From assembly GCF_014203095.1 (NCBI RefSeq), contig NZ_JACHIG010000002.1:53695-117694 (forward strand): a DNA stretch of 64,000 bases, read 5' to 3'. This document shows positions 20,361 to 35,559 of this stretch, piece after piece (the first letter of the stretch is position 1; each line of letters opens with the position of its first letter). The stretch is from Prosthecobacter vanneervenii (GTDB taxonomy: Bacteria; Verrucomicrobiota; Verrucomicrobiia; Verrucomicrobiales; Verrucomicrobiaceae). Under the pieces are notes generated by a model that saw only the letters and a list, made by a program, of their open reading frames with translations, searched no databases and was not told the DNA's origin. The position numbers and the translations under genes are program-made.

Positions 20361-20377
20361 CCCCGTCCTGTAAAATC

Positions 20378-20402: not shown

Positions 20403-20433
20403 CAACAGCAGTCTTTACAATTGTTTCATTGCA

Positions 20434-21156: not shown

Positions 21157-21257
21157 GAAAAATGCTTTCCCTCCATCGGATAGGGTGAGTGATTTGGGAT
21201 AACCCATCAAGCTCTTGGCATGGATCGAACAGGCGATGCCTAGTTAGGAACTACAAA

Positions 21258-21446: not shown

Positions 21447-21523
21447 AGGATTGCACCTTCTAGTGATTCATAAGCCAATCACAGGGCCCCGAAAAAAGAG
21501 GTCGAAAATTTGCCTTCATCCTG

Positions 21524-21787: not shown

Positions 21788-22264
21788 GAGTAAAAGCGTC
21801 TTGATCGTTTCAGGAGGTTTCCGGTTGTTACCTGTAGCTCAGGAAGAGACATGCGCATGATGTTGATGGCTGTTGTTTTGGTAGAGCCGGAGTGGTAGAA
21901 CAACAGGCTGAAGAACCTCTTAGCCGACCAAGGTCCAGACAACGCGATGCGCAATGAACTGGTGGAGGGAAAGTGGTGGCCGGCGCACAAACGCGAAGCA
22001 TTCGCGCATCTGGAACGCAAGCTCAGGCTGCCGCAGCGCCAGCACCTATGCAGCAGACGGGGCCGCTGAGGTAACAACACACAGCACCACAAACATCAGG
22101 AAGTTTGGAAGCAGCTTCACCCATTCTCTGCCTGATGAGCTGCTCCATTGAGGATGCACCTCATGTGAGCTGAGGCTGGAACGAATGCCCTCTCTCTCAA
22201 ATGCTTTGTAGTAACCCAATCAACATATTGTTAGATAATATAAATTTAATAACAATGATATTCT

Positions 22265-23644
22265 ATGGTATACATTTTCAGAACAGTTGTATTGAGTGCG
22301 CTTGTAGTAACTGGGTTGCCAACCCTGGCCCCGGCGGAACGACCCATGCCGAAAAATGAAATCGGTTTCTTTCGTGACTGGCTCAAACGAAACAGTGGGA
22401 AGCACATTGCCAAACAGTCCCCTGTGACAAATGAGCAGAGCCTGGGAGCCACCCTGTACTCTGACAAGAACCTCTCGCTGCTCCGCAATCAATCCTGCGC
22501 TTCATGCCACAGTCTGCAGCCTGCCAAAGACCACATCACACATGAGCCCTTGGGCGCGGCCGGATTTGTGGACCCCGCCAATGTGGAGCTCCTGACCCCT
22601 GTGTCCAAAGGATCGGTGCCAGGCAGGTTTGGCGGACTTAACGCCCCTGCATCCGGTTATGCTGCCTTCAGCCCTGCGTTTCAGTGGGACGGCACCCAGG
22701 GACTGTTCTTCGGCGGACAGTTCTGGGATGGTCGCGCACCGGACCTCAAGACCCAGGCTGGAATGCCCTTTCTCAATCCTGTGGAAATGGCCATGCCTAG
22801 CCAGTGGGCCGTCGTCTCGCGCCTGAAAGGCAACCCCTACTACCGGCGTGCGTTTGCCACGCTCTACAAATTAGATCTGGACTCAATACCCGAGCGGGAG
22901 GGAGCTGCAGCGTCTGCCCAGGCACCTGCAGGTGTGGCGGCCGTGTTTGCAGCCCTCACGCATGCGATCGCCGAGTTTGAAAAGAGCCGTCTGTTTAACC
23001 GCTTCACCTCCAAGTTCGACTTCTATCTTGCCGGCAGGATAGAGCTGGCACCGCAGGAGGTCCGTGGGCTGAACCTCTTTACCGGCAAGGCCAAGTGCGC
23101 GGGCTGCCACGTTTCAAACCCGACCGTCGCCACCGATGGCACGCCGTTCCCGCCTCTGTTCACCGACTTTTCTTATGACAATATCGGCGCGCCAAGAAAT
23201 ACCCGCATTCCTGGAAACCCGGAGCCAAACCTTGGCCTCGGCGGGCGTGCGGACGTCGCTGACATCACCTTTGGTGGTGAGGTGGGAAAGCACAAGGTCA
23301 TGTCCCTGAGAAACATCGCCGTCACCGCTCCGTACGGGCATAATGGTGTCTTCACCACCTTGGAGCAGATTGTGCACTTCTACAATACCCGGGACGTGCT
23401 CGGCCGGGTGGCGTCCAATCAGGCAGCAGGTTTTGGCACCGCAGGGTGGCCCGCACCCGAAGTCCCAGCCAACGTAAACGATGTCGAACTGGGAGCCCTC
23501 GGTCTCACGGACCAGGAGGAGGCAGATGTTGTGTCCTTCCTGAAGACCCTGACAGACGATTACCCGACCTGGGGCAAAGATCCCAAGATACCTGCCGGGA
23601 CACCGTCTCCCTTTGCAGCCACGCCCTTTCCTCCGATGCCCTAG
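22265..23644 (+). CDS. Di-heme cytochrome c peroxidase (MauG/CCP family)
   Basis: The product is 459 residues with a signal peptide (LSALVVTGLPTLAPA). Heme c sites are C78-x-x-C81-H82 (CASCH) and C278-x-x-C281-H282 (CAGCH). Family landmarks are visible: FWDGRA between the hemes, and KVMSLRNIAVTAPYGHNG, then TLEQIVHFYNTRD near the end. It is closer to the canonical family size than the 722-aa relative at 7.2 kb. The following gene, 57 bp downstream, is an HExxH-domain protein. MauG itself modifies a protein substrate, so this enzyme may act on a peptide or protein and not only on H2O2 (inference). Confidence 0.93.
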   Translation: MVYIFRTVVLSALVVTGLPTLAPAERPMPKNEIGFFRDWLKRNSGKHIAKQSPVTNEQSLGATLYSDKNLSLLRNQSCASCHSLQPAKDHITHEPLGAAGFVDPANVELLTPVSKGSVPGRFGGLNAPASGYAAFSPAFQWDGTQGLFFGGQFWDGRAPDLKTQAGMPFLNPVEMAMPSQWAVVSRLKGNPYYRRAFATLYKLDLDSIPEREGAAASAQAPAGVAAVFAALTHAIAEFEKSRLFNRFTSKFDFYLAGRIELAPQEVRGLNLFTGKAKCAGCHVSNPTVATDGTPFPPLFTDFSYDNIGAPRNTRIPGNPEPNLGLGGRADVADITFGGEVGKHKVMSLRNIAVTAPYGHNGVFTTLEQIVHFYNTRDVLGRVASNQAAGFGTAGWPAPEVPANVNDVELGALGLTDQEEADVVSFLKTLTDDYPTWGKDPKIPAGTPSPFAATPFPPMP

Positions 23645-23701
23645 AGAGCGCACGTTCAGCGCCCCCCACCCAAAACAAAACAGCAGAAGGTAATTTACTC
23701 T

Positions 23702-24718
23702 ATGAGCATGGTCGCAGGCAGTCCCTATGTTTCGATGATTTCCAAACCGTCCCAAGGCGTGGACGAGACGTGGTTCAGCGCCGTGCCATCTGCCGGAAAA
23801 ACGCGGGAGCTGGCCACGGCCTTCAGACAGTTCTGGCAGCACCAGGCCAGGATGGCGCTGGAGGCCGCTGCTGAAGGCGTGGGGCGGAGTCTTCCCCAGC
23901 TGATGGAGCGTGTGGCCCAGCTGGATACCCGGCGAAGAATTTCGCCCAAGATGTTTGCGCGGCTTGCCACACTGATGGAAGCGATGTCTTTTGAGGACGG
24001 GTATGGCGTCTTTGACACCCTCCAGGCCTGGTCTGGTGACAAGCCGGAAGACTGGTGCCACGATGAGCTCCCGGTGGAGTCCGTGGCCTCCCACGCCTGG
24101 GAGGCATCTTTGCTTCGAGAAATCCGCAACACCCAGGTGGCCGGCGTGGCACCGCTGGAGTTTTTCCCCCTTCTGGAGGCAGACCTGACTCCGCATCAGA
24201 ATGCTTTGACACAGGCACTCGATTTCATCCGGCAGGTTGATCAAGACATGCATGACGAAATTCGGACTCATGTGGGCCTGATCAAGCTCTTTGACGGTTC
24301 CGGCATTGAAGGACTGAGCTCTCCGAAGGCCTTTGGGGCCATCTGGTTGAAGGTGCCTGCTCCGGAAAAGGCACTCGCCTGGTTTCTGGAGCACCTGGTG
24401 CATGAATGCTCTCACCTGCACCTCAATGCGCTGATGGCTTTCGACCCTCTGCTAACCAACCCCAATGAGATCAATCGCTCGCCGTTGCGACCAGATCCGC
24501 GTCCGATGTTTCAGGTGCTGCACGCCACCTTTGTGCTTTTCCGAAACCGGCGTGTGCATGCGCGGTTGCATGCCAGGTATCCAGACCTCGGTCTAGGGGC
24601 TGAAACGGAGGAATTTGCCATGCAGTTTGAATCGGGGGTGGCCATTTTGAATGAGTACATGAAACCCACGCCCTTAGGCCAGAAACTGCTCGACTCCATG
24701 ATTTCAGACGGTGTGTAG
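23702..24718 (+). CDS. HExxH-domain protein (peptide beta-hydroxylase-like)
   Basis: The product is 338 residues, cytosolic, with no signal peptide; AGAAGG lies about 10 nt before the ATG. Residues 234-238 are HECSH, preceded by LAWFLEHLV. They are followed by LRPDPRPMFQVLHATFVLFR-like sequence and a late EEFAMQFESG. This order (HExxH, then an RPDPRP loop and a helix with LH) is what I know from the HEXXH-motif domain family, now assigned to alpha-ketoglutarate-dependent peptide beta-hydroxylases of RiPP pathways. The match is by motif, not by search. No radical SAM, transporter or obvious precursor lies adjacent; the upstream gene is a di-heme peroxidase. Confidence 0.75.
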   Translation: MSMVAGSPYVSMISKPSQGVDETWFSAVPSAGKTRELATAFRQFWQHQARMALEAAAEGVGRSLPQLMERVAQLDTRRRISPKMFARLATLMEAMSFEDGYGVFDTLQAWSGDKPEDWCHDELPVESVASHAWEASLLREIRNTQVAGVAPLEFFPLLEADLTPHQNALTQALDFIRQVDQDMHDEIRTHVGLIKLFDGSGIEGLSSPKAFGAIWLKVPAPEKALAWFLEHLVHECSHLHLNALMAFDPLLTNPNEINRSPLRPDPRPMFQVLHATFVLFRNRRVHARLHARYPDLGLGAETEEFAMQFESGVAILNEYMKPTPLGQKLLDSMISDGV

Positions 24719-24925
24719 CTGGCAGACACGGGCAGTGGCGGAAACGATGGCGTTTTTCTGAGAATGCCATCGCTTCCATACCATGGTAAGGCAGGCGCTG
24801 GTCACCCTGCCGACCTTTTCAGCCGGCATTTTTAGCAGACCGTGCTCAATGCAGCAGACTTGATGCAGGTCTTTTTGCTGATGGTAAATTGATGCACGGC
24901 AACAGTCCTCGCGCACAAGTTCAAA

Positions 24926-25159
24926 TTAGATGAGCCTTTTTTTGAAAGGCATTCCCTGGGCCAATTGCGCAAACAATTCATACTCATGCGCGCTCAATGA
25001 GTCATGAAGCTTTTCACTTTGATAATAAACTATGCAGTCATTCAAGCTTTGCATCACCTCAAGGGAAAGGTGCATTCGACCATCAATCACTGTGTGTGTG
25101 GCGTTTGCAATCTCATCGCTTGAGCAAGTTGTGGTGACGATACTTCGTGGCGCCGTCAC
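24926..25159 (-). pseudogene. Truncated NarL/FixJ response regulator
   Basis: A 77-residue frame. SSDEIANATHTVIDGRMHLS matches the last receiver helix and linker of NarL-type regulators (the usual form is DELxxAIxxVxxGxxYLS). LHDSLSAHEYELFAQLAQGM then matches the start of the LuxR helix-turn-helix (LSxREREVLxLLAQG). The frame stops right after, before the recognition helix, and lacks the phospho-acceptor half. It is therefore a remnant, at the left edge of the accessory island. Confidence 0.6.
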
Positions 25160-25182
25160 GAAGCACTCGATCCAACCAGTAG

Positions 25183-25347
25183 GATGAAGAGGGGAGTCAA
25201 ATCGAGTTCCGCGCTGAACTCTCCGGCCTGGAGAAGATCACCCGCTGGGTGCTTAGCTGGGGTAGCAAGGCCCAGGTGTTGGGACCACCGGAGCTCAAGA
25301 CGCGGGTGCAGAAAGAGCTGAAGGCGATGGTGGGAGCCTGTGGGTAA
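25183..25347 (+). pseudogene. C-terminal remnant of a WYL-domain regulator
   Basis: After an in-frame stop at 25180-25182, 54 codons read like the C-terminal end of WYL transcription factors: FRAELSGLEKITRWVLSWG, then AQVLGPPELKTRVQKEL. The family form is FxVxGLxEIxRWVLxxGxxAxVLxPPEL. The DNA-binding and WYL parts are missing upstream, where only the opposing regulator remnant is found. WYL regulators often sit in phage-defence or mobile islands, so this scar marks a rearranged boundary. Confidence 0.65.
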
Positions 25348-25421
25348 AGCCTGCCAGCTGCATTCCAGCTGCTGCTGCGAGTCAAATAGATCAACGCAAG
25401 CCAGTTTAGCAGTGATAGCTA

Positions 25422-25467
25422 AAAGAAAGAGGTCCGGCATCAGCCGAACCACTTTCCAATCTTTCTT
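25422..25467 (-). terminator. Hairpin after the DUF932 gene
   Basis: Outer arms AAGAAAGA/TCTTTCTT and inner arms GGTCCGGC/GCCGAACC (one mismatch) form a two-part stem just past the stop codon of the minus-strand gene at 25470. It is a likely intrinsic terminator for the end of the island operon. Confidence 0.6.
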
Positions 25468-25469
25468 CT

Positions 25470-26246
25470 TCAAGCGGCTAGCCCGACATGAGTGTCGAGT
25501 AGGCCGTGAAGCGCCTCAGTGCGCTTGGGCAATTCTGCCAGGCTGCCCTCCTTCAGAGCTTCCGTAAAGGCATTGAACAGGCTCCAGACGTTTCGGCTTT
25601 CGAAGGCTGCATGCCGAGGCTCGCGCCATTCCTGCAGCACGGGCGGGATGAGGCGGTTGCTGCACACGCCCACATCGGTGGCTCGGATGACGAGATCGTG
25701 GGCCTGCGTATCGCTGATCTCTGCCTCTTTATAGGCGGCGATGCGTTTGTCCTGGTCGTGCCACTTGGCCAACAGCTGTCCGATGGAACGGGATACCAGT
25801 TGAGGGAGGTCACGGTTGATAAACCGGGTGTGTTTGCGCCCGAATTTGATCTCGCCGCTGAACGACAAATTATCACAAACCAGAACCGCAGCTCCGGCGA
25901 CGATGCCGGCGGGGAAGGTCTTGTCGTGGCTGTTGCGCAGGCCGAGCACCCAGCAGTAGTCGTCGCTGGCCTTCTGAGCGTGGACTTCCATGAGCCCGAA
26001 GTAGCGCTGACCTTCGTGGGACAGCGAATGGGCCTGGGTGCCGATGCGCAGATTGGTGGTGGCCAGGGCTTTTTGCACGGTGGTGATGAGCTGATGGTGC
26101 GGAATGGGACACCAGCTTGTGGTGGAGCGCGGTGTGCGGACTTTGCCGACTTCCGAAAGATCCACGCTGTGTGCACCGCAGTGAAGAATGAGGTTGGGAT
26201 GCCTGGGGGTGGTTATTGGGGACTGAGGTTCAAGATTTGCGATCAT
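25470..26246 (-). CDS. DUF932 (phage/plasmid-like) protein
   Basis: The product is 258 residues. Landmarks of the DUF932 family are present: an early VPHHQLITTVQKAL-type segment (here PIPHHQLITTV), FGLMEVHAQ, then LGLRNSHDKTFPAGIVAGA and VCDNLSFSGE. It ends with FNAFTEALKEG. These proteins are carried by plasmids, phages and integrated elements; their biochemical role is unsettled. The gene is the last of the island's minus-strand series and follows a 64-residue gene by 30 bp. No catalytic motif stands out. Confidence 0.85.
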   Translation of the reverse strand: MIANLEPQSPITTPRHPNLILHCGAHSVDLSEVGKVRTPRSTTSWCPIPHHQLITTVQKALATTNLRIGTQAHSLSHEGQRYFGLMEVHAQKASDDYCWVLGLRNSHDKTFPAGIVAGAAVLVCDNLSFSGEIKFGRKHTRFINRDLPQLVSRSIGQLLAKWHDQDKRIAAYKEAEISDTQAHDLVIRATDVGVCSNRLIPPVLQEWREPRHAAFESRNVWSLFNAFTEALKEGSLAELPKRTEALHGLLDTHVGLAA

Positions 26247-26276
26247 GGTGATGAAATGGGTTTGATGTTGAGAGCG

Positions 26277-26471
26277 TCAGCAAAAGAGACGCTCGATTCT
26301 TTGGATGACGGGCACGGCGAGCTGCTTGGCTGGCAGCTCACCTGAGCTGGTCCAGTAGCGTTCACCGGCCACCTCCCGCCACTCGACCCTGATGGTGCCG
26401 AGCGGGGTGATGATGGTGGCTCGCTTGGGATGCTCGTGCCGGTCGAAGACAATGGACGAGATGCGTTTCAT
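26277..26471 (-). CDS. Small protein of the island, unknown
   Basis: The product is 64 residues: MKRISSIVFDRHEHPKR, then TIITPLGTIRVEWREV and a short helix ending RIERLFC. Two or three beta strands and a final helix are predicted, without membrane segment or known motif. It sits 30 bp upstream of the DUF932 gene in the same orientation and just after the hairpin that ends the clamp gene, so the two probably form one transcription unit. Confidence 0.6.
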   Translation of the reverse strand: MKRISSIVFDRHEHPKRATIITPLGTIRVEWREVAGERYWTSSGELPAKQLAVPVIQRIERLFC

Positions 26472-26480
26472 AAAACGACA

Positions 26481-26515
26481 GGAGCCAGGCGCGCTGATGA
26501 GGCACGCCTGGCTCC
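26481..26515 (-). terminator. Perfect 11-bp hairpin after the clamp-like gene
   Basis: Arms GGAGCCAGGCG (26481-26491) and CGCCTGGCTCC (26505-26515) are perfect complements. The hairpin lies between the clamp-like stop (26535) and the next start (26471). On the minus strand it is followed by TGTCG and TTTTATG, only a short T run. Confidence 0.65.
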
Positions 26516-26534
26516 TTGAGGTTGAGTGTTGGAT

Positions 26535-27968
26535 TTACAGCTTGAGGCCTTGCAGTGAGCGCAAGGTGGAGCGGACGGAATTCAGCTCCCGTGCGCTCGT
26601 CTTCTGGTCACGGTTGATGGCCTTCAGTTTGAGTGAGAGCTCACGCAGGAGGTTGAAGCCTTCGTTGAGCTTGTCCCGGAGGAGCAAGGTCAGGTCGATG
26701 ACTTCTTCCGTGGCGCTTTTGGGCTCGCCCGATGCAGGCCCTTCGGAGGTGGGATGTGTGATCATGGGTTGGGGTGGTGGTGCAGGCGGAGGAACTGGCC
26801 GGGAAGGCGGCGGGTTTACCGGTGCGGGTTGTGGGGTTGCTGGCTTCCTGGAGGAAGGGCCATCTATCCGCAGGGGCATGACGATCATCTGCCTGCCTTT
26901 GTGGTGAAAACGCAGGGGATGGATCTCCTCATTGAGGCTGATGGTGTTGAGACCGTATTCGAGCGCCTTGATCAGATAGCGACGGCACAGGAAGATGGAA
27001 ACCTCCTGGCCTTCGATCTTGGCATCGAGAACTGGAACCCGAGTCCATGGAGTGTCTGGGGTGTCTCTGCCGAGAAGCATGAACTGGCCCTGCTGACACT
27101 CCAGGCCGATGGTCTGGTATTTGTCGGGGTCGTGACAAGGCATGCGCTGGATGAGCTTGATGAGCGCGTCCAGTTTGGCCGGGTCGAGAGTAACGTGGGT
27201 TCTGGCGTCACTGGGATTGGGGACCGTCACGCGCCAGTCGGGGTATTTTCCGTCGATCTGTTTGGAGATGAACCGCCAGCGCCGGCTGCTGATCTGAACG
27301 GTTGTGCCGTCCGCCTTGAGCTGCCATTCCCCGTCATTGTCAAACTCCTTCCAGCCAAGGAATTTGTTGTTGGGAATGAGGACGGAGTTCTTCAACGGCA
27401 GCGCGAAGGAGTTGGCGCTGTACAGATGCCTGCCATCGGTGCCAACGATGTAGTTGGCCTTTGGGTTGCTGGCGTCGATGAACGTACCGTTGAGAACGTA
27501 GCGTGTTTCGTCAATGCTGGCGCATTCCATCGCTTCGTGGATGGAGTGGCGCAGTTCAGATGGCAGTGGGATGGACTCGCCGGGAAGGCGAGGCGTCACG
27601 GGGAATTCCGCCAGTGGAATGAGTTTCACCTTGGATTCGCCGAGGTTGTCAGCCAGGGCGAATTTGATGACGGGGCCTCCCGGTGTGGTATCAATGAGCA
27701 GACTTTCATTGCGGTCACTGTTCTTGGTGAGCTGAACGAGCTGCTCATGAGGGATAAACACCGTCATGGCAGGTCCGGTGGAGGGTTGTTCAAGACGAAC
27801 GGTGACGAAGCGGTCGAGATCGGTGCTCGTGAGAGCGACCCATCCATCGGTCGTACGCTCGACTTTAACGTATTGCAGAACGGGCAGCGTGGATCGTGAA
27901 TTGATCACTTTGCCGAGTCCCACAAGGGCGGGCTTCAATTCCGCAACGGGCAGTGAGATGGGGTTCAT
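26535..27968 (-). CDS. DnaN-like sliding clamp with proline-rich tail
   Basis: The product is 477 residues from the ATG at 27968, which overlaps the upstream lipoprotein stop (ATGA). The first 375 residues follow the beta-clamp pattern: LGKVINSRSTLPVLQYV, then STDLDRFVTVRL, LPLAEFPVTP-like, RYVLNGTFID, TDGRHLYSA and a final YLIKALEYG/MPLRI end. Clamps tether polymerases, ligases and mismatch enzymes to DNA. A normal DnaN ends here; this one adds a Pro-rich linker (about 385-415) and a coiled-coil tail (about 425-477). It is therefore probably not the housekeeping dnaN but an element-borne clamp, next to a ligase. Confidence 0.82.
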   Translation of the reverse strand: MNPISLPVAELKPALVGLGKVINSRSTLPVLQYVKVERTTDGWVALTSTDLDRFVTVRLEQPSTGPAMTVFIPHEQLVQLTKNSDRNESLLIDTTPGGPVIKFALADNLGESKVKLIPLAEFPVTPRLPGESIPLPSELRHSIHEAMECASIDETRYVLNGTFIDASNPKANYIVGTDGRHLYSANSFALPLKNSVLIPNNKFLGWKEFDNDGEWQLKADGTTVQISSRRWRFISKQIDGKYPDWRVTVPNPSDARTHVTLDPAKLDALIKLIQRMPCHDPDKYQTIGLECQQGQFMLLGRDTPDTPWTRVPVLDAKIEGQEVSIFLCRRYLIKALEYGLNTISLNEEIHPLRFHHKGRQMIVMPLRIDGPSSRKPATPQPAPVNPPPSRPVPPPAPPPQPMITHPTSEGPASGEPKSATEEVIDLTLLLRDKLNEGFNLLRELSLKLKAINRDQKTSARELNSVRSTLRSLQGLKL

Positions 27969-28162
27969 GGGCGTGATGGTTGAGGTTGTTCGCCGGATTT
28001 TTGCGGCGGTTCCGGCGTGGTCTGGGTTTGAGGAACGACGATGATGATGTCCTGCCGCAGTTCCTTGATCGCTGGTTGCGAAGAGGAATGGGGGCAGGCG
28101 GTGCCTGCGAGGACGAGCAACACGCAGGCTGCCAGCCGGATGAAATAAACAATGTGCTTCAT
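27965..28162 (-). CDS. Small proline-rich lipoprotein
   Basis: The product is 65 residues: MKHIVYFIRL, a hydrophobic stretch and the lipobox LAGTAC (Cys at 23). A short polar segment and a Pro/Gln-rich tail (TTPEPPQKSGEQPQPSRP) follow. It is coupled to the clamp-like gene by an ATGA overlap. Size, lipobox and proline content resemble phage Rz1-type outer-membrane spanins, but no matching inner-membrane partner overlaps it, so that reading is only a possibility. Confidence 0.65.
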   Translation of the reverse strand: MKHIVYFIRLAACVLLVLAGTACPHSSSQPAIKELRQDIIIVVPQTQTTPEPPQKSGEQPQPSRP

Positions 28163-28191
28163 GAGTGTGTACTTTGGGGGTTGTACGCAAA

Positions 28192-28225
28192 CAAGCCCAG
28201 GCACCGGTAAAGATGCCTGGGCTTG
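28192..28225 (-). terminator. Perfect 12-bp hairpin after the ligase gene
   Basis: Arms CAAGCCCAGGCA (28192-28203) and TGCCTGGGCTTG (28214-28225) enclose a 10-nt loop. The hairpin lies between the stop of the ligase gene (28242) and the lipoprotein start (28162). On the minus strand it is followed by TTTG. Confidence 0.7.
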
Positions 28226-28241
28226 CGCGTGGGTTGTGGTT

Positions 28242-29303
28242 CTATGCCTCCGCCTCAGTTTTGTATTTGAGCTGGGCGGTGGTGCATTCGGCGGCGCGAA
28301 TGTCGGGACGCGGCCCCAGGTAAACCGGCTGGTAGATGCTGCCGGATTCCTTGAACGCGTACAGGTAACGACACTCCACCACGGTTCCCGGTTCAGGAAC
28401 ATCGTGGTTGGATGGAATGGTGACGTTGCCAGCGGGGCGCACTTTCTCGCCGTCGAACAAGATCAAGGAGACGCTGCGCTTGCCGTTCAACTTGGTGACG
28501 ATGAACGAGGCGGTCTCGTGGAACTTGTATTTAAACTGGCTGCCGCCGCTGTTGGGACGTCCGGGTGTGTACGGCGCGTCCTTGTGTTTGAACACCACGC
28601 CTTCTTTGCCTTCCTGCTTGAACCGCTGGAGCTGGCCAGCCGTTTCAGATGGGAACATCACCTGAACCAAGCGGATGTGCGGATGATCGAAGACGTTGAG
28701 CATGTTGCGCATCCGCAAATAGCGCACCGCGAAGCCCAAAGGACGCATGTCCTCGGGGCCGATGGTGAGCAAATCGAAGGCATGGAAGGTGTCTCCCACG
28801 GCTTCACCATCGAGGATGAAGTCGCGGGGATATTGGGCGGCTTCGTGGGCGATGGGTTCGGGGACGGCCGTGGGAAATCCCAGGCGGTTGATACCGGTGA
28901 TCTGATCGCCGGCTTTTTTGATCAGCAACCGGCGTCCGTCGAGTTTCTCCTGCATCCAGTAGTCCGGATTGAGCAGCATCTGGTCGAGTTGCTGCTCATG
29001 GAGGGGATTGAGCAGCTGACAGTGAATGCCGGTGTGCTTGTTGGGGGACTCCGGTGGTGGGGTAACGGCACCGGCGACTCCAGGCTTGTAGCCCTTCGCC
29101 ATTTTCTCCCGGATCAATTTGTCGTAGATGCCCTTGGCAATTGGGTAGGCGACCGGCGTCTGCGTTTTGCTGCCGGTGTTAAGGGTGGTGCCGCGACGGC
29201 CATACGCGAAGTGCACGTGGTAGCCGTCATCTTTTTGGGAAATGCTGGCTTGGTACACTTTGTCTGAAGGGCCTTCGCGGAAATACAAAGTGATGCTTTC
29301 CAT
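28242..29303 (-). CDS. WGR domain fused to ATP-dependent DNA ligase
   Basis: The product is 353 residues; AAGGAAA lies about 10 nt upstream of the ATG. Residues 1-75 form a WGR domain (SDKVYQASI, then YHVHFAYGRRGTTLNTG), a nucleic-acid-binding fold known from PARPs and MolR-like proteins. The nucleotidyltransferase core follows. Motif I is EKLDGRR with the adenylated Lys at K120; then LDGEAVG (165-171), EGVVFKH (234-240) and FKYKF (257-261), the expected ligase motifs. A short OB domain ends the protein (about 262-350). It would seal nicks with ATP. It lacks the large N-terminal domain of replicative ligases, like small viral or repair ligases. Its neighbour is a sliding clamp. Confidence 0.88.
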   Translation of the reverse strand: MESITLYFREGPSDKVYQASISQKDDGYHVHFAYGRRGTTLNTGSKTQTPVAYPIAKGIYDKLIREKMAKGYKPGVAGAVTPPPESPNKHTGIHCQLLNPLHEQQLDQMLLNPDYWMQEKLDGRRLLIKKAGDQITGINRLGFPTAVPEPIAHEAAQYPRDFILDGEAVGDTFHAFDLLTIGPEDMRPLGFAVRYLRMRNMLNVFDHPHIRLVQVMFPSETAGQLQRFKQEGKEGVVFKHKDAPYTPGRPNSGGSQFKYKFHETASFIVTKLNGKRSVSLILFDGEKVRPAGNVTIPSNHDVPEPGTVVECRYLYAFKESGSIYQPVYLGPRPDIRAAECTTAQLKYKTEAEA

Positions 29304-29331
29304 GGGGTGAATTTCCTTTCTTGAAATGAAA

Positions 29332-29363
29332 AGAGCCGGACGATCCTGCGATCATCCGGCTCT
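29332..29363 (-). terminator. 14-bp near-perfect hairpin
   Basis: Arms 29332-29345 (AGAGCCGGACGATC) and 29350-29363 (GATCATCCGGCTCT) pair with one mismatch around a CTGC loop. It lies between the stop of the two-TM protein gene (29395) and the ligase start (29303). The minus strand reads into TTTTCATTTC after the stem. Confidence 0.7.
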
Positions 29364-29394
29364 GGGGTTGGGGTTTTGAGACGTGGGTGCCGCG

Positions 29395-29904
29395 TCAGTA
29401 GTTGTAGGGATCCCGGCGTTGCTGATGGCGCAGGCGCATCGACAGAATGGATTTCGCGATGGAAACCAATCCGGCGATGAGCCCCACGACCAGCAGCACT
29501 GAGAGCGGCACCAGGACGAAATTGGACGTCGATTTGCTGATGAGGTCGATCCAGAGGTTGAATCGTTCCAAGGCCAGCGTGACCAGAGGTGCCACCAGCA
29601 AGGCGGGCACCGCGATGCCGATGGCAAGGCGCAGGTTGAACTTCAGCCACTCCCGCAGGGTTCCCTGCGGTGAGAGCCAGTATTCAGCCCGGCGGCAGGT
29701 GAAGCTGATCACCTCGGCCGAGCGCTCAATGGCGCTGAGGTTCGGCAGTTCTTCGTCGATGACGGGTTCGCTGAGCGGTTCAGGCTGCCAGCGTCGAATG
29801 ACGATCTGGCGGGCCTGTTTCGCCCAGGTGGTGGCGGGCACCGTTGGGAGCTGCTGGGGCAGCGGTGGGTGGGACTGTTCGTCCCAGTCGGGTTCTTCCA
29901 TCAT
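29395..29904 (-). CDS. Two-TM membrane protein of the island
   Basis: The product is 169 residues from the first of two adjacent ATGs at 29904. The N-terminal half is soluble and acidic/Pro-rich (EEPDWDEQ, then QPEPLSEPVIDEELP). The C-terminal half has two transmembrane helices (about 98-120 and 136-158) and a basic end (RLRHQQRRDPYNY). No family recognised. Its first 125 bp overlap the end of the upstream gene in another frame. The frame remains open upstream of 29904, which leaves a frameshift or longer start possible. Confidence 0.6.
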   Translation of the reverse strand: MMEEPDWDEQSHPPLPQQLPTVPATTWAKQARQIVIRRWQPEPLSEPVIDEELPNLSAIERSAEVISFTCRRAEYWLSPQGTLREWLKFNLRLAIGIAVPALLVAPLVTLALERFNLWIDLISKSTSNFVLVPLSVLLVVGLIAGLVSIAKSILSMRLRHQQRRDPYNY

Positions 29905-30157
29905 AATGTTGGCGTGTTTTGGCCCCGAGGGCGGTTCCGATGACAAATAACAGCACGCAGCCCACGGCGAGAGTGCCGGTGGCGATCTCCCAGCGTGTGG
30001 TGACGGCGTGCTGTTCCGAGAGGCGATCTTCCAGGCTGACAATTTTGGCCCGGTATTCCGGGCCGAGATCAGGCGGTGGATCGTCGAAGAACCAGCCTGC
30101 ATGCATGTTCGGTGCGAACAGCATCAGCAGGCCGGTGATGAGGATGAGATGTTTCAT
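29780..30157 (-). CDS. Small membrane protein with signal and coiled coil
   Basis: The product is 125 residues from the ATG at 30157. A signal-like start (LILITGLLMLFAPNMHAG) precedes a short coiled-coil segment (YRAKIVSLEDRLSEQ) and one transmembrane helix (about 59-78). The last 42 residues overlap the next gene out of frame and are low-complexity (TAAPAAPNGARHH), so the natural C-terminus may be shorter or a frameshift may exist. Not recognised; probably works with the two-TM protein that it overlaps. Confidence 0.5.
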   Translation of the reverse strand: MKHLILITGLLMLFAPNMHAGWFFDDPPPDLGPEYRAKIVSLEDRLSEQHAVTTRWEIATGTLAVGCVLLFVIGTALGAKTRQHYDGRTRLGRTVPPTAAPAAPNGARHHLGETGPPDRHSTLAA

Positions 30158-30217
30158 GGTGGGTGTGGGGATGGGCCACAGGCCGGCGCCCGGGCTGAGC
30201 GCCGACATGCAGCAGGG

Positions 30218-31030
30218 TTAACTCCATAGTCGGCATTCGTTGAAGAACTCGCAGCTTGAGCAGTGCATCCCAGGCGAAGGGATGAAGTCGCGGCGCTGCA
30301 ATCCTTCGAGGTAGGCTTCCATTTGCCGGAACAGCCGGGTTTCCTGGCCTGGGCTCATGGGAGGCAGTGTGGTAATGACCACCTTGGGGTTCTTGAGTTT
30401 GACCAGGTGATGCAGCTGCATGCCTGCTTCCTGTGCGCCGGTGTTGTGCCGGTACAGGATGGCGTAGCTGCAGGTTTGGATTTCCGTGGTGTGGGAGACC
30501 TTGTCGGCATTGGGAGTGGTGGCGCTGGTCTTGTAGTCGATAATCTGGCGTTGCTGCACCAGATCGAGGATGCCGATGAGACGGGGCAGCCCATGCTGCT
30601 GCAAATCGGCCTCTACCGGGACTTCCACGGCGTCAGGTTTGATGGCGGCAGGGAGGTGGCTTTCACGCAGGTAGGTATCGAGCAGACGCCAACCGGTGGT
30701 TTTGTCGGCCTCTTCCTCCCCGGGTTCCCATGCTACCGATCCTTCGGTGTTGTCCGCCCAGGCTGTCTGGTAGGTCTCGTGGACCACCTTGAGCGAGAGC
30801 GGCTGCTGCACCCAGCGTGCCTTGTTCCAGGCCTTCAACACGGCGTGAACCGCATTGCCGAGATGGAGCGAGGCTGTCTTGGGCTTTTTGAGCTTGAGCA
30901 CGTAGCGGAAGTAGAACTTCAACCGGCATTGCAGGAACAGCGACAGCCGTGAAGCTGACACGGTTGCCTGCAATGCGGTGAGGACGTCCTGCTCGCTGCG
31001 CTCAGGTGATGAGGCAGCGAGCGTGTTCAT
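30218..31030 (-). CDS. PD-(D/E)XK nuclease (Cas4/RecB-type)
   Basis: The product is 270 residues, coupled to the upstream 175-aa gene by ATGA (31027-31030). It starts with the family pattern SASRLSLFLQCRLKFYFRYV-like (first Cys about 35) and GNAVHAVL with the helix His. IGILDLV and IDYKTSAT then give the catalytic Asp and the D-x-K pair. The C-terminus HCSSCEFFNECRLW supplies three more cysteines, so a 4Fe-4S cluster of the AddB/Cas4 type is likely. Such enzymes trim DNA ends in recombination or adaptation. There is no CRISPR array or cas gene nearby; the partners are clamp, ligase and DUF932, pointing to a recombination or replication role. Confidence 0.88.
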   Translation of the reverse strand: MNTLAASSPERSEQDVLTALQATVSASRLSLFLQCRLKFYFRYVLKLKKPKTASLHLGNAVHAVLKAWNKARWVQQPLSLKVVHETYQTAWADNTEGSVAWEPGEEEADKTTGWRLLDTYLRESHLPAAIKPDAVEVPVEADLQQHGLPRLIGILDLVQQRQIIDYKTSATTPNADKVSHTTEIQTCSYAILYRHNTGAQEAGMQLHHLVKLKNPKVVITTLPPMSPGQETRLFRQMEAYLEGLQRRDFIPSPGMHCSSCEFFNECRLWS

Positions 31031-31554
31031 GCGGCTTGGGCGTTGGTGGGTTGCTGCTGCCAGCGGGTCTGGCGTGGAGTGGGCTTCCCCGCCAGGACGA
31101 GCAGATCCTCGATCAACTGGGAAGCCTGCATCTTGTTGAGCTGCTTGACGCCGATGCCGAAAAGCTGCTGGGACAGCTCCTCCGCCACCTGCTTGGTGAT
31201 GCCGGGGTTTTCATTGACGATGCGCAGGATGAAGCCGCGCTGACCGTCGGTGCAGTTCCAGCGGTCGGCGTTGGGTGGTGCAGATGGGTGACCACTGCCA
31301 TTGACCGGCTGGGCACGTCCTTTTTGCTGGGGCGCTGGACGGCTGTTGCCGTTGGTGTTGGCAGTCGGGACGAAGCCAGGTTGTTGGATTTCCTGATCGA
31401 CGGACTGCTGCAGGAGCTGGTAGAGCTTCTGCACTTCGGCTTCGACCTGGGTGATGTCGTTGAGTTCGACTTCAACCGAAGCGCTGAAGCTGTGGCTGCT
31501 GTACTGGGGCAGCCCGAGTTTTTTGCTGTAGTTGGCGCTGAGTTTGATGGCCAT
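31027..31554 (-). CDS. Nuclease-coupled element protein, unknown
   Basis: The product is 175 residues from the ATG at 31554 (MAIKLSANYSKKLGLP). The N-terminal 65 residues form a beta-rich segment (SSHSFSASVEVEL) and a helix (EAEVQKLYQLLQQSVDQEI). A Gln/Pro/Asn-rich linker (about 75-105) follows, then a helical C-terminal domain (GFILRIVNENPGITKQVAEELSQQLFG) that looks like a small recruitment module. It overlaps the nuclease start by 4 bp, so the two are probably made in fixed ratio and work together. A single-strand-binding or annealing role is a guess. Confidence 0.7.
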   Translation of the reverse strand: MAIKLSANYSKKLGLPQYSSHSFSASVEVELNDITQVEAEVQKLYQLLQQSVDQEIQQPGFVPTANTNGNSRPAPQQKGRAQPVNGSGHPSAPPNADRWNCTDGQRGFILRIVNENPGITKQVAEELSQQLFGIGVKQLNKMQASQLIEDLLVLAGKPTPRQTRWQQQPTNAQAA

Positions 31555-31628
31555 GGTGGTGTTTCTCCTGATGTGGGGTGGGTGTGCTTGGGTGGATGAA
31601 GAAGCCGCCACATGACCCGGAAACAAAA

Positions 31629-31659
31629 CACCCGGCCTCTCGTGGGAGGGAACCGGGTG
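31629..31659 (-). terminator. Hairpin between the first two island genes
   Basis: Arms CACCCGG (31629-31635) and CCGGGTG (31653-31659) pair perfectly, and an inner CCTC/GGAGG pairing may extend the stem. The minus strand then runs into TTTTGTTTCC, which fits an intrinsic terminator or attenuator between the genes at 31693 and 31554. Confidence 0.6.
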
Positions 31660-31692
31660 AATGAAGTGGGATGCTGTGACGACGTGGTGCGG

Positions 31693-31905
31693 CTAGCTGG
31701 TGGTGCCAGCCTCCTGAATGCGGCCCTGAGCCGGGACGCTCATCTGCGTGGCAGCGATGCTCCAGCCCTGAGTGTTTTGCAGGGATGAGGTGAGCAGATC
31801 GTTGACCAGTCGCGTCATGGGACGGCGGAGCCGTCGGCCTTCATGATACAAAGCGCAGACGATGACCCGGTCGATGCAGGGCGAATAATGGGTTCGCCGT
31901 GGCAT
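31693..31905 (-). CDS. Small basic protein, possible ribbon-helix-helix regulator
   Basis: The product is 70 residues. After RTHYSPCIDRVIVCALYHEG comes a basic RRLRRPMTRLVNDLL helix. A short strand followed by two helices with a basic turn is the outline of a ribbon-helix-helix or small accessory regulator, but the match is weak. It is the first island gene after tRNA-Tyr, the place where an element's transcription regulator is often found, and an inverted repeat lies about 150 bp upstream of it. Confidence 0.5.
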   Translation of the reverse strand: MPRRTHYSPCIDRVIVCALYHEGRRLRRPMTRLVNDLLTSSLQNTQGWSIAATQMSVPAQGRIQEAGTTS

Positions 31906-32053
31906 GGTGGGTGGATGAGTGAGCCAAGAATAAACCCCGGTCGCTCAAGTTTTTATAACGCGGAAAAGCGGGGAATTGCAGTCCCTTCAGAATTCAAAAA
32001 CTAGTGTTCGAATTTGATTGAGTCATGGAGACGCACGCACAGTCAAAAAAGTG

Positions 32054-32070
32054 TGTACATATTGCGTACA
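32054..32070. promoter_or_regulatory. Inverted repeat TGTAC-N7-GTACA
   Basis: TGTAC at 32054-32058 and GTACA at 32066-32070 are symmetric around a 7-nt AT-rich spacer. They lie in the control region between tRNA-Tyr and the first island gene. It could be an operator for an element regulator; it does not match a LexA box of the TGTTC-N4-GAACA type. Confidence 0.35.
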
Positions 32071-32082
32071 CTCAAAAAAAGA

Positions 32083-32105
32083 AGCCCCGCCTTTGGGGCG
32101 GGGCT
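32083..32105 (-). terminator. Intrinsic terminator downstream of tRNA-Tyr
   Basis: Nine-base perfect arms AGCCCCGCC (32083-32091) and GGCGGGGCT (32097-32105) enclose a 5-nt loop. In the minus direction the stem is followed by TCTTTTTTTGAG, a good U tract, so it terminates tRNA-Tyr transcription. A shorter T run on the plus strand could make it bidirectional. Confidence 0.85.
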
Positions 32106-32133
32106 TTTGTCTTTAACTCACTCAGAATGAAGG

Positions 32134-32219
32134 TGGTGGGCAGGGCTGGATTCGAACCAGCGTAGGCGTAAGCCAGCAGATTTACAGTCTGCCCCCTTTG
32201 ACCGCTCGGGTACCTACCC
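32134..32219 (-). tRNA. tRNA-Tyr (GTA)
   Basis: The minus strand reads a class II tRNA: acceptor GGGTAGG pairing with CCTGCCC (one G-T pair), anticodon loop CTGTAAA with anticodon GTA, a long variable arm, T-arm GGTTCGAATCC, discriminator A and an encoded CCA (32134-32136). Length and long variable arm fit bacterial tRNA-Tyr. Its 3' end faces the accessory island, the usual orientation for tRNA-targeted integration; no second copy of the tRNA 3' end was found at the left side. Confidence 0.95.
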
Positions 32220-32313
32220 ATTCTCCTTTCGAAGTGGGCCGCGATTATGGTGTGTGGTTGAGGCTTTGCAAACGCTTTGTTCCTCTCTTTTGCATTCTTC
32301 TTCCATCTTCTCT

Positions 32314-33378
32314 TCAGCGGCGGCGTTTGCCACGCTGTGCGCGGCTGTGCTTAACGATGGGATGACTGGCGTGCAGCACCTTGAATCCACCAGTTTCGAC
32401 CACCTTTTCCATCTGCGCAAAGGTCTCGGTGAGGAGGTTTTCATACGGGAGCTGGCGGTTGGCCACCAGCCAGAGATGGCCTTCCGGACGCAGGGCCTGC
32501 GCGGCGGCGGCGATGAACTTGAGCCCGATGAGGGGATCGGCCTCCTTGCCCTCGTGGAAGGGCGGGTTCATGACGACGGCATCAAACTTGGTGCGGTCAA
32601 ATCCTGCAGTGATGTCCTGCCAGTGCGGCGCGGCCTTGGTGCGTGTGGGCACCAGGCCGAGATTGCGCCGCGCACACTCAAAGCAGTCGGCATCGGCATC
32701 GTAGATGTCGAGGGAGTCGATGTCGTGACAGTGCCGCAGGAGATGATCGCTCAGGAAGCCCCAGCTGCAGCCAAAGTCAGCCACGTTTCCGGAGAGCGTG
32801 AGAGGCAGGTGCTTGGCCAGAAGGGCGGAGCCTTCGTCGATGCGGTCCCAGTTGAAGAGCCCTGGGCGCGACCAGAAGCGGCCTTCCAGGATGCGGCGCA
32901 TGGCGGCACCTTGGCGCCAGCGCTCCAGCATGTCGGCTTTCCAAGGTCTGGCTTCGTCCTTGGTGGCCCAGAAGACACGGCTGTGGTGCTTGGAAAGAGT
33001 GTCGGCATGTCCGGCCACCTCGCGCAGGTGCTGCTCGCAGCGTTTGCTGCCGGCGTCATTATGCACGGCGGCCATGAGCACGCCGCCAGGGGCCAGGTGG
33101 TCATGCGCACGGGCGAGATCGGCCACCATGAGATCGCGTTGCGGATCTGGGAGCACGAGCACGAGGTCAAAGAGGCCATGCGCCTCGCGCTCCACGCGAT
33201 GGCCTGCGGCCTGGAGCTGATTGGCAAAGGGCTTCCAGGTCTGCTGACAGACGAGGCGGCCCTCAAAGTGCTCTAGCGCGGGATGCGCCTGCGCACGGAG
33301 GAAAAGCACACGCCCCTCAGTGCTGATGTCTGGAGTAACGTCGAGGGCGAAGATGAGGGCGTCGAGAGCGTGGGACAT
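32314..33378 (-). CDS. rsmC: RsmC-like 16S rRNA guanine-N2 methyltransferase
   Basis: The product is 354 residues with two tandem Rossmann-type domains, as in RsmC. The catalytic C-terminal half starts around 165. It has the SAM-binding VADFGCSWGFLSDHLL, then LDIYDADADCFECARRNL, and the amino-methylation motif VVMNPPFHEG. The N-terminal half is a degenerate copy (LVLVLPDPQRDLMVADLARAHDHLAPGG), typical of the RsmC/RsmD-like family. Its product m2G1207 lies in helix 34 of 16S rRNA. It could instead be RlmG (23S), which shares the layout. It has an oppositely placed ABC transporter operon just upstream (22 bp). Confidence 0.85.
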   Translation of the reverse strand: MSHALDALIFALDVTPDISTEGRVLFLRAQAHPALEHFEGRLVCQQTWKPFANQLQAAGHRVEREAHGLFDLVLVLPDPQRDLMVADLARAHDHLAPGGVLMAAVHNDAGSKRCEQHLREVAGHADTLSKHHSRVFWATKDEARPWKADMLERWRQGAAMRRILEGRFWSRPGLFNWDRIDEGSALLAKHLPLTLSGNVADFGCSWGFLSDHLLRHCHDIDSLDIYDADADCFECARRNLGLVPTRTKAAPHWQDITAGFDRTKFDAVVMNPPFHEGKEADPLIGLKFIAAAAQALRPEGHLWLVANRQLPYENLLTETFAQMEKVVETGGFKVLHASHPIVKHSRAQRGKRRR

Positions 33379-33399
33379 GCAGGAAAGTGAAACGAAATA

Positions 33400-34569
33400 T
33401 CAAAGCGCCCACCGCAGCAGATGCGGCGCGGTGAGGGAGGAGATTTGCAGCAAAACGAGGCCGATGACCACAGCGACGATGCCGATGATGAGCACCTCGA
33501 GCACCTTGACCGTGATAAGCGAGACACGAGAGACGCCGACGTCTTCGAGGGTGGCGAATTCACGCGCACGCAGCCGGAAAGAGAGCGCAAAGACCAGCGC
33601 AGTGACGAGCAGTGCAGCCGTGGCAGTGAGGAGGAGCGCGCTGGCGGCAAAGCCCTCCAGCCGCACCAGTTGCGTGAGCAGCGCCTCCATCTCATCTCGC
33701 GGGCGGATGAGCTGCTGCTCTTTGGACCGGGCGTAGCGGCCTGCCAGCAGGGCCTCGGCCTTGGCATCCTGCGGCAGCACGATGATGGCGCTGATGGGAT
33801 AGGTGGAGACATCGCCATGAAAATGGAAGGAGGCGATGTTTTTGTCCGTGACCTCATTGAACATGCGCACGGCGGCATTTCCCACGATGTTGCCATCTTC
33901 CTCTTTCTTCAGCACCACGGACTGGTCCTTTTGCAGGTCGTCATGCCCATGCGAGCGGCCCTCGATGAGCCAGGCGGTTTTCAGGTCCACAAAGACAGCC
34001 TCGTCATCCGGTGTGCCGCTGGGGGCCAGAATGCCAGTGATGCGCATCTTCAGCGGATACACGCCCGCCATGTCAAAGGCCTGCTCGGGCGAGGAGAAAA
34101 CATGACCGCCGGGCTGCAGGCCGCGCTGCTTTGCGACGGTGGCTCCGAGCACGCAATCTCCCAGGCGGCTGAGTTGTTTCCCGGCAGAGAGGTGCAGACC
34201 GCGAAAGGTGAAGTACTCCAGCTCGGTGCCCACGATGGGCGCCCCCTGCGCCTGAAAGCGCACATGCAGCGGGATGGCGGCAGCCGAGTGATTTTGACGC
34301 AGCTCGGTCAGCACACCCACAGGCAGAGGCAGGAGATTCTCGCGCTTGAAATAGAGCGCGGTCATCATGAGGTCCAGCGCACTACCTCGCGTGCCCACGA
34401 TCTGCGGCGTGGCGGCGGCACGGGCGCGCAGCTCCTGCTGGGCGTGGGAGATGAGCACGCGCAGGCACAGCGGCAGGGCAAAGACGAGGCCCAGAGCCCC
34501 CGCGAGCAGCGCACTCTGCAGGCGGTGACGCAGCACGTAGCGCGCAGCCAGATGGAGTGCAGCTCTCAT
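33400..34569 (-). CDS. ABC transporter permease (FtsX/MacB/LolE family)
   Basis: The product is 389 residues. An N-terminal transmembrane helix (about 18-38) is followed by a large periplasmic domain of about 240 residues (FTFRGLHLSAGKQL, CVLGATVAK, then MRITGILAPSGTPDDEAVFV). Two or three transmembrane helices close the protein, in the order of FtsX-type permeases. The gene is coupled to the ATPase by ATGA at 34566-34569. Such transporters move lipoproteins, macrolides or peptides, or work mechanically. No substrate can be named from sequence, and no membrane-fusion partner is adjacent. Confidence 0.85.
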   Translation of the reverse strand: MRAALHLAARYVLRHRLQSALLAGALGLVFALPLCLRVLISHAQQELRARAAATPQIVGTRGSALDLMMTALYFKRENLLPLPVGVLTELRQNHSAAAIPLHVRFQAQGAPIVGTELEYFTFRGLHLSAGKQLSRLGDCVLGATVAKQRGLQPGGHVFSSPEQAFDMAGVYPLKMRITGILAPSGTPDDEAVFVDLKTAWLIEGRSHGHDDLQKDQSVVLKKEEDGNIVGNAAVRMFNEVTDKNIASFHFHGDVSTYPISAIIVLPQDAKAEALLAGRYARSKEQQLIRPRDEMEALLTQLVRLEGFAASALLLTATAALLVTALVFALSFRLRAREFATLEDVGVSRVSLITVKVLEVLIIGIVAVVIGLVLLQISSLTAPHLLRWAL

Positions 34570-35234
34570 GCGGCGGGCAGATCCTCCATGCGCAGGGTTT
34601 GGTCAAAGAGCGGCAGCAGATTGGGATCATGCGTGACCATGACGAGGCAGGCGCTGCGCTGGCGTGCATCCTCCAGCAGCATGTCCACCACGATGCGTCC
34701 ACGTGCCGGATCGAGCGATGCGGTGGGCTCATCGGCAAAGACAAACTGCGGCTGGTGCACCAGCGCACGCGCCACGGCCACACGCTGGCGCTCCCCCTGC
34801 GAGAGCTGGGAGACGCGCTTGTCCAGGTAGCGGTCGATGTGCAGTCGCTGGGTCAGGTCCTGCATCCTGGTGCGGGCAGTGACACCGGCATCACCTCGGA
34901 ACTGATGCGGCAGGAGGATGTTTTCAGACACCGTCAGGTAGTCGAGCAGGGCGAAGTCCTGGAAAACGAGGCCGATATGCTGTAGGCGGAAGGCGCGGCG
35001 TGCCTCGTGCGTCATGGCGCTCATCTGCGCAGCGCCCAGGCTGACCGTGCCTGCCGTGGGGGCCAGCAGCCCCGTGAGCAGTCGCAGCAGGGTGGACTTC
35101 CCTGCCCCGCTGGGCCCGGCCAGCGCCAGCGCCTTGCCTGCGGCCAGCTCCAGGCGCGGCAGATGCACACGGAAGTCCCCTGCCGGATAGGCAAAGCGGA
35201 GGTCGGAGACTTGAAGGCCGGTGGTGGCGGACAT
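34566..35234 (-). CDS. ABC transporter ATPase (LolD/MacB type)
   Basis: The product is 222 residues with complete ATPase motifs: Walker A GPSGAGKST (40-48), Q-loop VFQDFALL, signature LSQGE (144-148), Walker B FVFADEP with catalytic Glu169, D-loop SLD and H-loop VTHDP. Length and sequence fit the LolD/FtsE/MacB subfamily, whose partner permease is of the FtsX type, as found here. It is the first gene of this two-gene operon. Confidence 0.93.
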   Translation of the reverse strand: MSATTGLQVSDLRFAYPAGDFRVHLPRLELAAGKALALAGPSGAGKSTLLRLLTGLLAPTAGTVSLGAAQMSAMTHEARRAFRLQHIGLVFQDFALLDYLTVSENILLPHQFRGDAGVTARTRMQDLTQRLHIDRYLDKRVSQLSQGERQRVAVARALVHQPQFVFADEPTASLDPARGRIVVDMLLEDARQRSACLVMVTHDPNLLPLFDQTLRMEDLPAA

Positions 35235-35559
35235 GCAGGCCCATTCTTTAAAGAGACGCCGGTTGAATCCAACGAGAAAAAATCACCCGCTGGGTAGGTT
35301 GTGTAGAAAGAGGACGGCTGAAGAATGCGCGCGCATGATCACATAGCAGCGCGCAGCCCATCATCATTCATGAAAATTCGCGGCTATTCGCGCTCATTCG
35401 CGTTGGAGATCAAACGAGCGGGCGCTTCATCATGCGAACGCCTCTCCGCCAAACCGCCCGACCACGAGGACGCTCGTACGCCATGGTGTTTGCAGCACGC
35501 TGACGGACGGGCGGGCTTACGCCACACCCATCCCACGGGCCAGCATGCTGGCCCATTCT
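35235..35559. other. Intergenic stretch with a short direct repeat
   Basis: No gene is supported. The 16-mer GGCCCATTCTTTAAAG occurs at about 35238 and again at about 35549, at the two ends of this gap, each just past a CATGCAGGCCC or CATGCTGGCCC context. The middle has short inverted arms around CGCGGCTATTCGCG. The direct repeats could mark a past insertion; nothing mobile remains between them. Confidence 0.5.

Follow-up and report, generated by a model that had tools for sequence, protein, structure and literature searches.

A clamp, ligase and nuclease operon beside tRNA-Tyr of Prosthecobacter vanneervenii as a candidate DNA-processing module of integrative islands

The stretch of 64,000 nucleotides from Prosthecobacter vanneervenii that we analyzed, hereafter the window, contains ten minus-strand genes at 25470-31905 beside a tRNA-Tyr gene. 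Coordinates are positions in the window, which belongs to the contig labelled C2 of genome G000; G and L numbers denote the genomes and loci compared. In order of transcription the genes encode p70, the partner of a nuclease, the nuclease itself, membrane proteins A and B, a ligase, a lipoprotein, a sliding clamp, p64 and a DUF932 protein, and the list of genes given in a preliminary description of this DNA is correct. We lean, with confidence only slightly better than even, towards the reading that the window contains what was once the tRNA-side end of an island and that the operon is a conserved DNA-processing module of a family of Verrucomicrobiota islands that carry tyrosine integrases and target the 3' half of tRNA genes. 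The operon is probably the islands' own kit for repair, recombination or copying, because it keeps the same gene order, occurs in up to four copies per genome and sometimes lies at the integration site; we file it as a recombination/replication backbone operon of integrative islands.

Conservation and copies of the cassette

The operon and its relatives, hereafter cassettes, were compared at 29 loci, non-redundant and selected because they extend beyond the operon, namely 25 of 40 fetched loci, the three copies of G000 itself and L017. Since the loci were found via the nuclease or the ligase, the presence of the nuclease in 29/29 is given by construction; p70, the partner and the clamp are each found in all 29 as well, the DUF932 gene in 28, the ligase in 23, membrane protein B in 22, membrane protein A in 20, p64 in 10 and the lipoprotein in four, with gene order kept in 29/29. 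Both membrane proteins are missing from L024, L041, L043-L045, L047 and L050, and A alone is also missing from L056 and L057. Loci cut by contig or fetched ends (L033, L035, L040, L042, L051, L055, L058, L061, L065, L070, L071 and L072) were left out of the 29, together with L069, in which the fetched stretch stops after the nuclease, L046 and L068.

Related loci bearing the cassette come from named Verrucomicrobiaceae, including Prosthecobacter, Brevifollis and others, and the nuclease is present at E<=1e-40 in 31 of the 68 genomes of the family, with zero to four copies each. The partner profile matches 67 of 387 genomes of the phylum at E<=1e-5; matches weaker than E ~1e-12 are in many cases confined to the N-terminal part and need not represent cassettes. 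In other families the set is reduced to partner, nuclease and DUF932 (five copies in G194, one in G290), to which G112 adds a diverged clamp. The five copies of the 3.8-Mb genome G194 (L157-L161), composed of an integrase-like gene, partner, nuclease and DUF932, are 93-98% alike over main pieces of 2.0-3.8 kb and have mosaic edges. Clustering of the flanks of 40 loci returned chromosomal neighbours of the tRNA-Tyr site, homologues of membrane protein B and small shared groups.

G000 possesses three copies of the ligase, clamp and nuclease genes, in the window and on contigs C7 and C1. The whole cassette (25182-31962, minus strand) is common to the window and the C7 copy (L023) as a single blastn match of 6,792 columns with 91.6% DNA identity, which stops sharply at both ends and is bordered by unrelated flanks; no other blastn match between the two was found within the compared stretch 20001-36000. 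The window copy lies beside tRNA-Tyr, the C7 copy beside tRNA-Leu. The ratio of nonsynonymous to synonymous substitution rates (dN/dS) of the window copy against other copies is 0.03-0.44 for eight genes, membrane protein B and the lipoprotein not being among them and the comparison of p70 with L024 being saturated. The genes of the window copy are still under purifying selection, and the cassette genes are therefore maintained; because this range of dN/dS accompanies an invariant order and a sharp-edged second copy, the association of the genes is more than chance.

On the upstream side, the window and C7 copies cease to resemble each other near a promoter-like stretch common to related copies (TGCAATT ... 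CGTTATAA; 31950-31982, minus strand), the conservation of which, among copies at the side of a tRNA or an integrase, was judged by eye. Downstream, a hairpin with variable letters, read as a terminator, is followed by TTTAGCT or close variants (25417-25469 on the minus strand for the whole feature, with TTTAGCT at 25417-25423 in the window). TAGCT lies 41-69 bases beyond the first base of the DUF932 stop codon in 19/29 loci, counted over 29 loci with a complete DUF932 gene (L014 replacing L060), and the hairpins differ; the motif may be either a feature of the terminator or a recombination edge. The cassette ends with the C-terminal remnant of a gene for a WYL-type regulator, convergent with the operon (25182-25347, plus strand), whose tail is also present in the C7 copy (94%) and in L010 (57%); in L044 the family is represented by an intact gene (PF13280 WYL, PF25583 WCX) that immediately precedes p70. 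Cassettes probably exchange parts among themselves, because gene-by-gene identities to the window are uneven, as in L010 with 65% for DUF932 and 93% for the nuclease.

Attachment sites, integrases and islands

The tRNA-Tyr gene considered as the attachment gene (32134-32219, minus strand; ARAGORN and Rfam) shares the strand of p70, and 228 bp separate its end from that gene downstream. Between them lie the paired short repeats GTGTAC ... TGTACAC in an arm-type layout (32050-32073, minus strand), which relatives keep with different letters. A tRNA gene is located <=400 bp upstream of p70 in 7/29 loci (Tyr in five, Leu in two), while one of the 29 has a partial tRNA 3' end (L037) and another an integrase abutting p70 (L048). 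Upstream partial tRNAs, sought with a T-arm motif search within 400 bp and a by-eye check of 13 stretches, turned up only at L037 and L046/L020. Cassettes adjoin tRNA genes for Tyr, Leu and Arg, which is the conserved synteny beside different tRNAs envisaged in the preliminary description. The orthologous tRNA-Tyr site within the genus is occupied by the cassette in six relatives (L074-L076, L081, L084 and L085), by other genes behind a similar repeat layout in L078-L080 and L083, and by an adjoining integrase-like gene in L082, with no such feature in, for example, L087 and L090. The earlier proposal of a mobile island module is supported by this variable site, by the different tRNAs and by the co-occurrence of the genes in fixed order at many loci; the two situations that it had named as telling against such a module, genes scattered without ever co-occurring and core genes at this locus in all relatives, are not those found here, given the fixed order on one side and the partial distribution of the nuclease and the changing tRNA-Tyr site on the other.

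The C7 copy is located at one end of a 71-kb stretch that runs from tRNA-Leu at C7:162795 to a 79-bp duplicate of it (97.5%) at C7:91815, where the duplicate and a 26-bp arm repeat stand beside a Phage_integrase gene above the cut-off. Similarly, the C1 copy is contained in a 32.5-kb stretch between tRNA-Leu at C1:92494 and a 69-bp duplicate (95.7%) at C1:125029, which together with a 25-bp arm repeat stands beside an integrase gene, again with Phage_integrase above the cut-off. In both islands the short repeats that adjoin the tRNA are found again at the far-end integrase, and both the C7 and the C1 copy reside in elements having an integrase inside and a duplicated tRNA 3' end on the far side. 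(Of the C7 island interior, L277-L282, we record a 3763-residue adhesin-like protein with transport-like neighbours, names that come from reading the sequence.)

Related genomes have further copies of the tRNA-Tyr 3' end, beginning with the anticodon loop, and an integrase gene lies within ~120 bp at six of nine fetched duplicates (L046, L172-L175 and L178). Integrase-like genes <=0.8 kb upstream of the operon, called at relatives by an iterated profile liable to drift, are present in L033, L048, L058, L070 (two frames), all five G194 copies and L165. The previous observation that no integrase is seen holds, then, for the window copy, but an integrase does belong to relatives of the module. 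We found no match to the arm region in window 1-31900 or C2:33701-53700, and the only other match in the genome to the tRNA-Tyr 3' end is a tRNA-Ile on contig C29. Because it lacks an integrase and a second attachment (att) site, the window copy is best read as the remnant end of an island.

Encoded proteins and their possible function

The nuclease (30218-31030, minus strand, like all genes of the operon) is predicted to belong to the PD-(D/E)XK type, with PF12705 at E 1.7e-30 and the PHROG 69 exonuclease at E 1.9e-18. Its motif C..C.....C is present in 43/43 relatives and the upstream cysteine motif in 42/43, so that it shows the four-cysteine pattern of Fe-S type enzymes. It shares this pattern and its nuclease family with Cas4, from which it differs in scoring 34.9 bits against TIGR00372, under the curated cut-off of 65, and in the company it keeps, family scans having found no cas gene among the ten operon proteins. 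The partner (31027-31554, 175 residues) has an Asn/Gly-rich linker between N and C ends that are conserved in the alignment; library scans returned no family match for it and a PDB profile search nothing below E 0.28. The ligase (28242-29303, 353 residues) combines a WGR domain (PF05406, E 3.1e-5, above cut-off) with an ATP-dependent ligase domain (PF01068, E 3e-10, 40.6 bits vs a cut-off of 26.2), and its KxDG motif is retained in 27/29 relatives, the remaining two (L050 and L055) being partial sequences. It falls short of the models of the nonhomologous end-joining ligase D, with 51.3 of 227.75 bits for TIGR02779 and 35.6 of 373.2 bits for TIGR02776.

The clamp (26535-27968, 477 residues) is DnaN-like, as its central domain matches PF02767 at E 2.3e-10 (41.2 bits vs a cut-off of 27) and the whole protein matches the PHROG 947 processivity factor at E 1.2e-26. 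The N-terminal domain PF00712 remains below its cut-off (18.8 vs 24.4 bits), as does the replicative DnaN equivalog TIGR00663 (76.6 vs 137.65 bits), and a separate intact chromosomal dnaN of 365 residues is present on contig C3. A C-terminal extension of ~110 residues in the clamp is proline-rich and then helical-looking. The last gene encodes the DUF932 protein (25470-26246, 258 residues; PF06067, E 5.7e-8), for which an AlphaFold2 model was built. The smaller products are p70, encoded by the first gene (31693-31905), the small conserved p64 (26277-26471), membrane protein A (29780-30157, 125 residues, with a hydrophobic segment near residues 55-81 and a gene overlapping the start of membrane protein B), membrane protein B (29395-29904, 169 residues, two hydrophobic segments) and a proline-rich lipoprotein (27965-28162, 65 residues) with a signal and lipobox recognized by eye. 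None of these, nor the partner, has a Pfam match at E<=0.1, the queries for the membrane and lipoprotein genes having longer or other starts. In agreement with the preliminary description, no polymerase or cas gene was recognized among the operon proteins.

These families would fit a sequence of events that starts once the DNA of an island has been excised, transferred or broken. Its ends would be resected by the nuclease and partner, the DUF932 protein might act on the exposed strand or joint, the dedicated clamp would keep a host polymerase and the ligase in place, and the latter would seal the product. The WGR domain of the ligase probably reads DNA ends or nicks by analogy with PARP proteins. 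The island might thereby be repaired, recombined or copied, in the way that exo/bet/ssb genes serve SXT-type elements, and the membrane proteins may tie the kit to DNA entry.

The exo-bet-ssb recombination genes of SXT/R391 elements and IncC plasmids are accompanied by cobS, DUF3150 and DUF932-type genes. The exo/bet/ssb set of SXT-type elements would be the closest functional analogue of the cassette, both being operons of mobile elements in which a gene of an exonuclease family accompanies DUF932; L060 adds DUF3150 and an AAA ATPase in one run of genes with the cassette. In contrast to that set, the cassette has no recognizable Bet or other annealing protein and no single-strand DNA-binding protein (SSB), possesses a sliding clamp and a WGR ligase in addition, and resides on tRNA-targeting islands of Verrucomicrobiota. 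WGR ATP ligases of megaplasmids and jumbo phages are the same two-domain protein (31-46% identity), but no annotated clamp or Cas4-like nuclease neighbours them in five regions, where many genes are called "hypothetical protein", and the partner is absent from both collections. Phage sliding clamps (PHROG 947) are likewise DnaN-type clamps on mobile elements, from which the cassette clamp differs by its C-terminal extension, its operon with ligase and nuclease and its several copies per genome; plasmid dnaN genes and phage clamps are both among its matches.

WGR ATP ligases without the partner were found on 18 plasmid records (NZ_CP096823.1:101733-102851 and 17 others), which are large plasmids of mycobacteria, Variovorax, Rhodanobacter, Pseudomonas and other hosts, and relatives of the WGR ligase and of DUF932 occur in phage genomes. 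The partner was found in none of the plasmid or phage collections searched and is unconfirmed in viral contigs, and 80 loci (L190-L269) contain no other cassette gene at E<=1e-4 within ~3 kb on either side of DUF932. Presence on plasmids, which the preliminary description named as possible support for a mobile module, is thus not borne out for the set, and we rejected a plasmid or phage origin of the whole set, since the partner was not found there and no second cassette gene lies near DUF932. A viral contig (L022) contains, in one block, genes that from reading their sequences we name Mre11/SMC-like, WGR ligase, helicase-like, primase-like and a second PD-(D/E)XK-like.

Clamps, ligases and exonucleases are each already known as accessory genes of mobile elements. 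Titles and the beginnings of abstracts in the literature searched, largely without subscription papers, contain nothing on the fixed gene set, its position at attachment sites or its spread. A bolder view, which we hold to be doubtful, is that of a so far unrecognized, phylum-wide family of islands with its own 'cut-clamp-seal' machine, in which the four-cysteine nuclease and partner, a private clamp diverting replication enzymes, the WGR ligase as a reader of DNA ends and DUF932 as strand handler would carry out island recombination or repair independently of the integrase; incoming single strands might be built into replicating DNA, for example, or islands shuffled at tRNA hotspots. Linking orphan families (DUF932, WGR ligases and a partner without family match) to one mobile operon makes their functions testable together, and an element-borne sliding clamp in three copies beside the chromosomal one offers a direct handle on the competition of mobile DNA for the host replisome.

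Points against the island reading and alternative explanations

Several observations weigh against the operon being a module of tRNA-targeting islands and a DNA-processing kit. In 20/29 loci neither a tRNA or partial tRNA nor an integrase was detected right beside the operon, the C1 copy sits in the interior of its island, three of the nine tRNA-Tyr duplicates (L176, L177 and L179) have no integrase by profile, and Pfam recognizes the integrases of G194 and L165 weakly or not at all (no match for L161, below cut-off for L165). The window copy, for which contig C2 contains no PF00589 match and the window no second tRNA-Tyr 3' end besides the tRNA itself (28 bp, <=7 mismatches), may be an immobile leftover. 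The ligase is absent or broken in 6/29 loci, and is not found between nuclease and clamp in L051 and L072; in L046 it breaks off at residue 230 and continues as a piece of polymerase, with no clamp or DUF932 detected although the contig continues, and L068 retains the partner, nuclease, membrane protein A and a broken DUF932, no clamp or ligase being detected. A role in repair, recombination or replication we infer from protein families, and the operon contains no recognizable strand-annealing protein, SSB, helicase, clamp loader or polymerase; the three small membrane or lipid proteins are out of place in a repair kit confined to the cytosol. The DUF932 model (pLDDT 86 with 65 sequences, 34 with nine) predicts a helix, five strands, a long helix and a helical C-terminus. 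It has no PDB match at E<=0.001, and its VIA Z scores, with Mediator best (8.4) and an Fbxo7 domain next (7.9), are middling; the TnsE C-terminal domain on DNA ranks sixth (Z 7.2). Such values for a predicted structure are in the range of unrelated folds. Rad52, RecT and Red beta are absent among the VIA matches listed, which excludes none of them, and matches in a viral library are other DUF932/TIGR03299 proteins and unnamed ones.

Among the alternatives, an anti-phage defence operon, in which the nuclease and partner would sense or cleave phage DNA, host DNA would be protected or repaired by the clamp and ligase and the membrane proteins would act as effectors, appears unlikely to us. Islands at such sites do carry defence genes, so that in Verrucomicrobiota the operon may be a marker of elements that transport such genes: the C1 island contains DruA together with the cassette, and tRNA-Tyr of G034 is the site of a 61-kb island with Cas1, Cmr1, Cas10 and DpdE/Drm-type genes, which terminates in an integrase and a second att copy directly before a cassette, with no cassette gene detected inside the island. 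Small membrane proteins and a Cas4-like nuclease would also suit defence. Against it, PADLOC matches of the operon (Cas4, WGR_XIII and HEAT-ARM_XIII) are at domain level only, up to four copies occur per genome, and recurrence beside tRNAs and integrases is as expected of a backbone gene set.

Equally improbable, in our estimate, is a replication module of the excised island, whose clamp and ligase would help to build a replisome while the nuclease matures primers. This would be consistent with the phage relatives of the WGR ligase and DUF932 and with the D5-like (DUF5906) primase-helicase of the C1 island, a 34%-identical relative of which precedes the partner in L163; yet none of the flank families common to at least four of the 40 loci looks Rep-, helicase- or primase-like, as judged from sequence, and a polymerase encoded near the C1 copy, hereafter the Y-C polymerase, does not co-occur with the cassette. 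Matches to it at E<=1e-120, fragments included, are present in 26 of the 68 family genomes and the nuclease in 31, with both in 12 (p=1.0), and we consequently rejected it as a cassette component. A third alternative, a stress repair cassette that serves the host and uses islands only as a vehicle, as cargo for survival of DNA damage, we hold to be just as unlikely: a function for the element accounts better for the recurrent att and integrase position and the multi-copy state, and 37/68 family genomes are without the nuclease at E<=1e-40. In favour of such cargo, WYL-type regulator genes or remnants adjoin several copies, WYL regulators of the DNA damage response are known, and SRAP, LexA-like and polymerase genes lie beside the C1 copy.

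The Y-C polymerase (1414 residues; L024:14676-18920, G000:C1:108675-112916) contains Y-family IMS and IMS_C domains fused to C-family domains, namely PHP, Pol3 alpha, finger, HHH_6 and OB, and upstream of it lie the Peptidase_S24 (LexA-like) and SRAP genes. The passages found in PMC12926913 and PMC6511836 do not mention this fusion. Broken remnants of a Y-C polymerase gene are also present just left of the window (G000:C2:50665-51449). In L020:10001-11287, and at the same place in L046, the ligase frame, cut at residue 230, runs into a piece of the Y-C polymerase frame; as read from these frames, the joint is a deletion joining two island genes.

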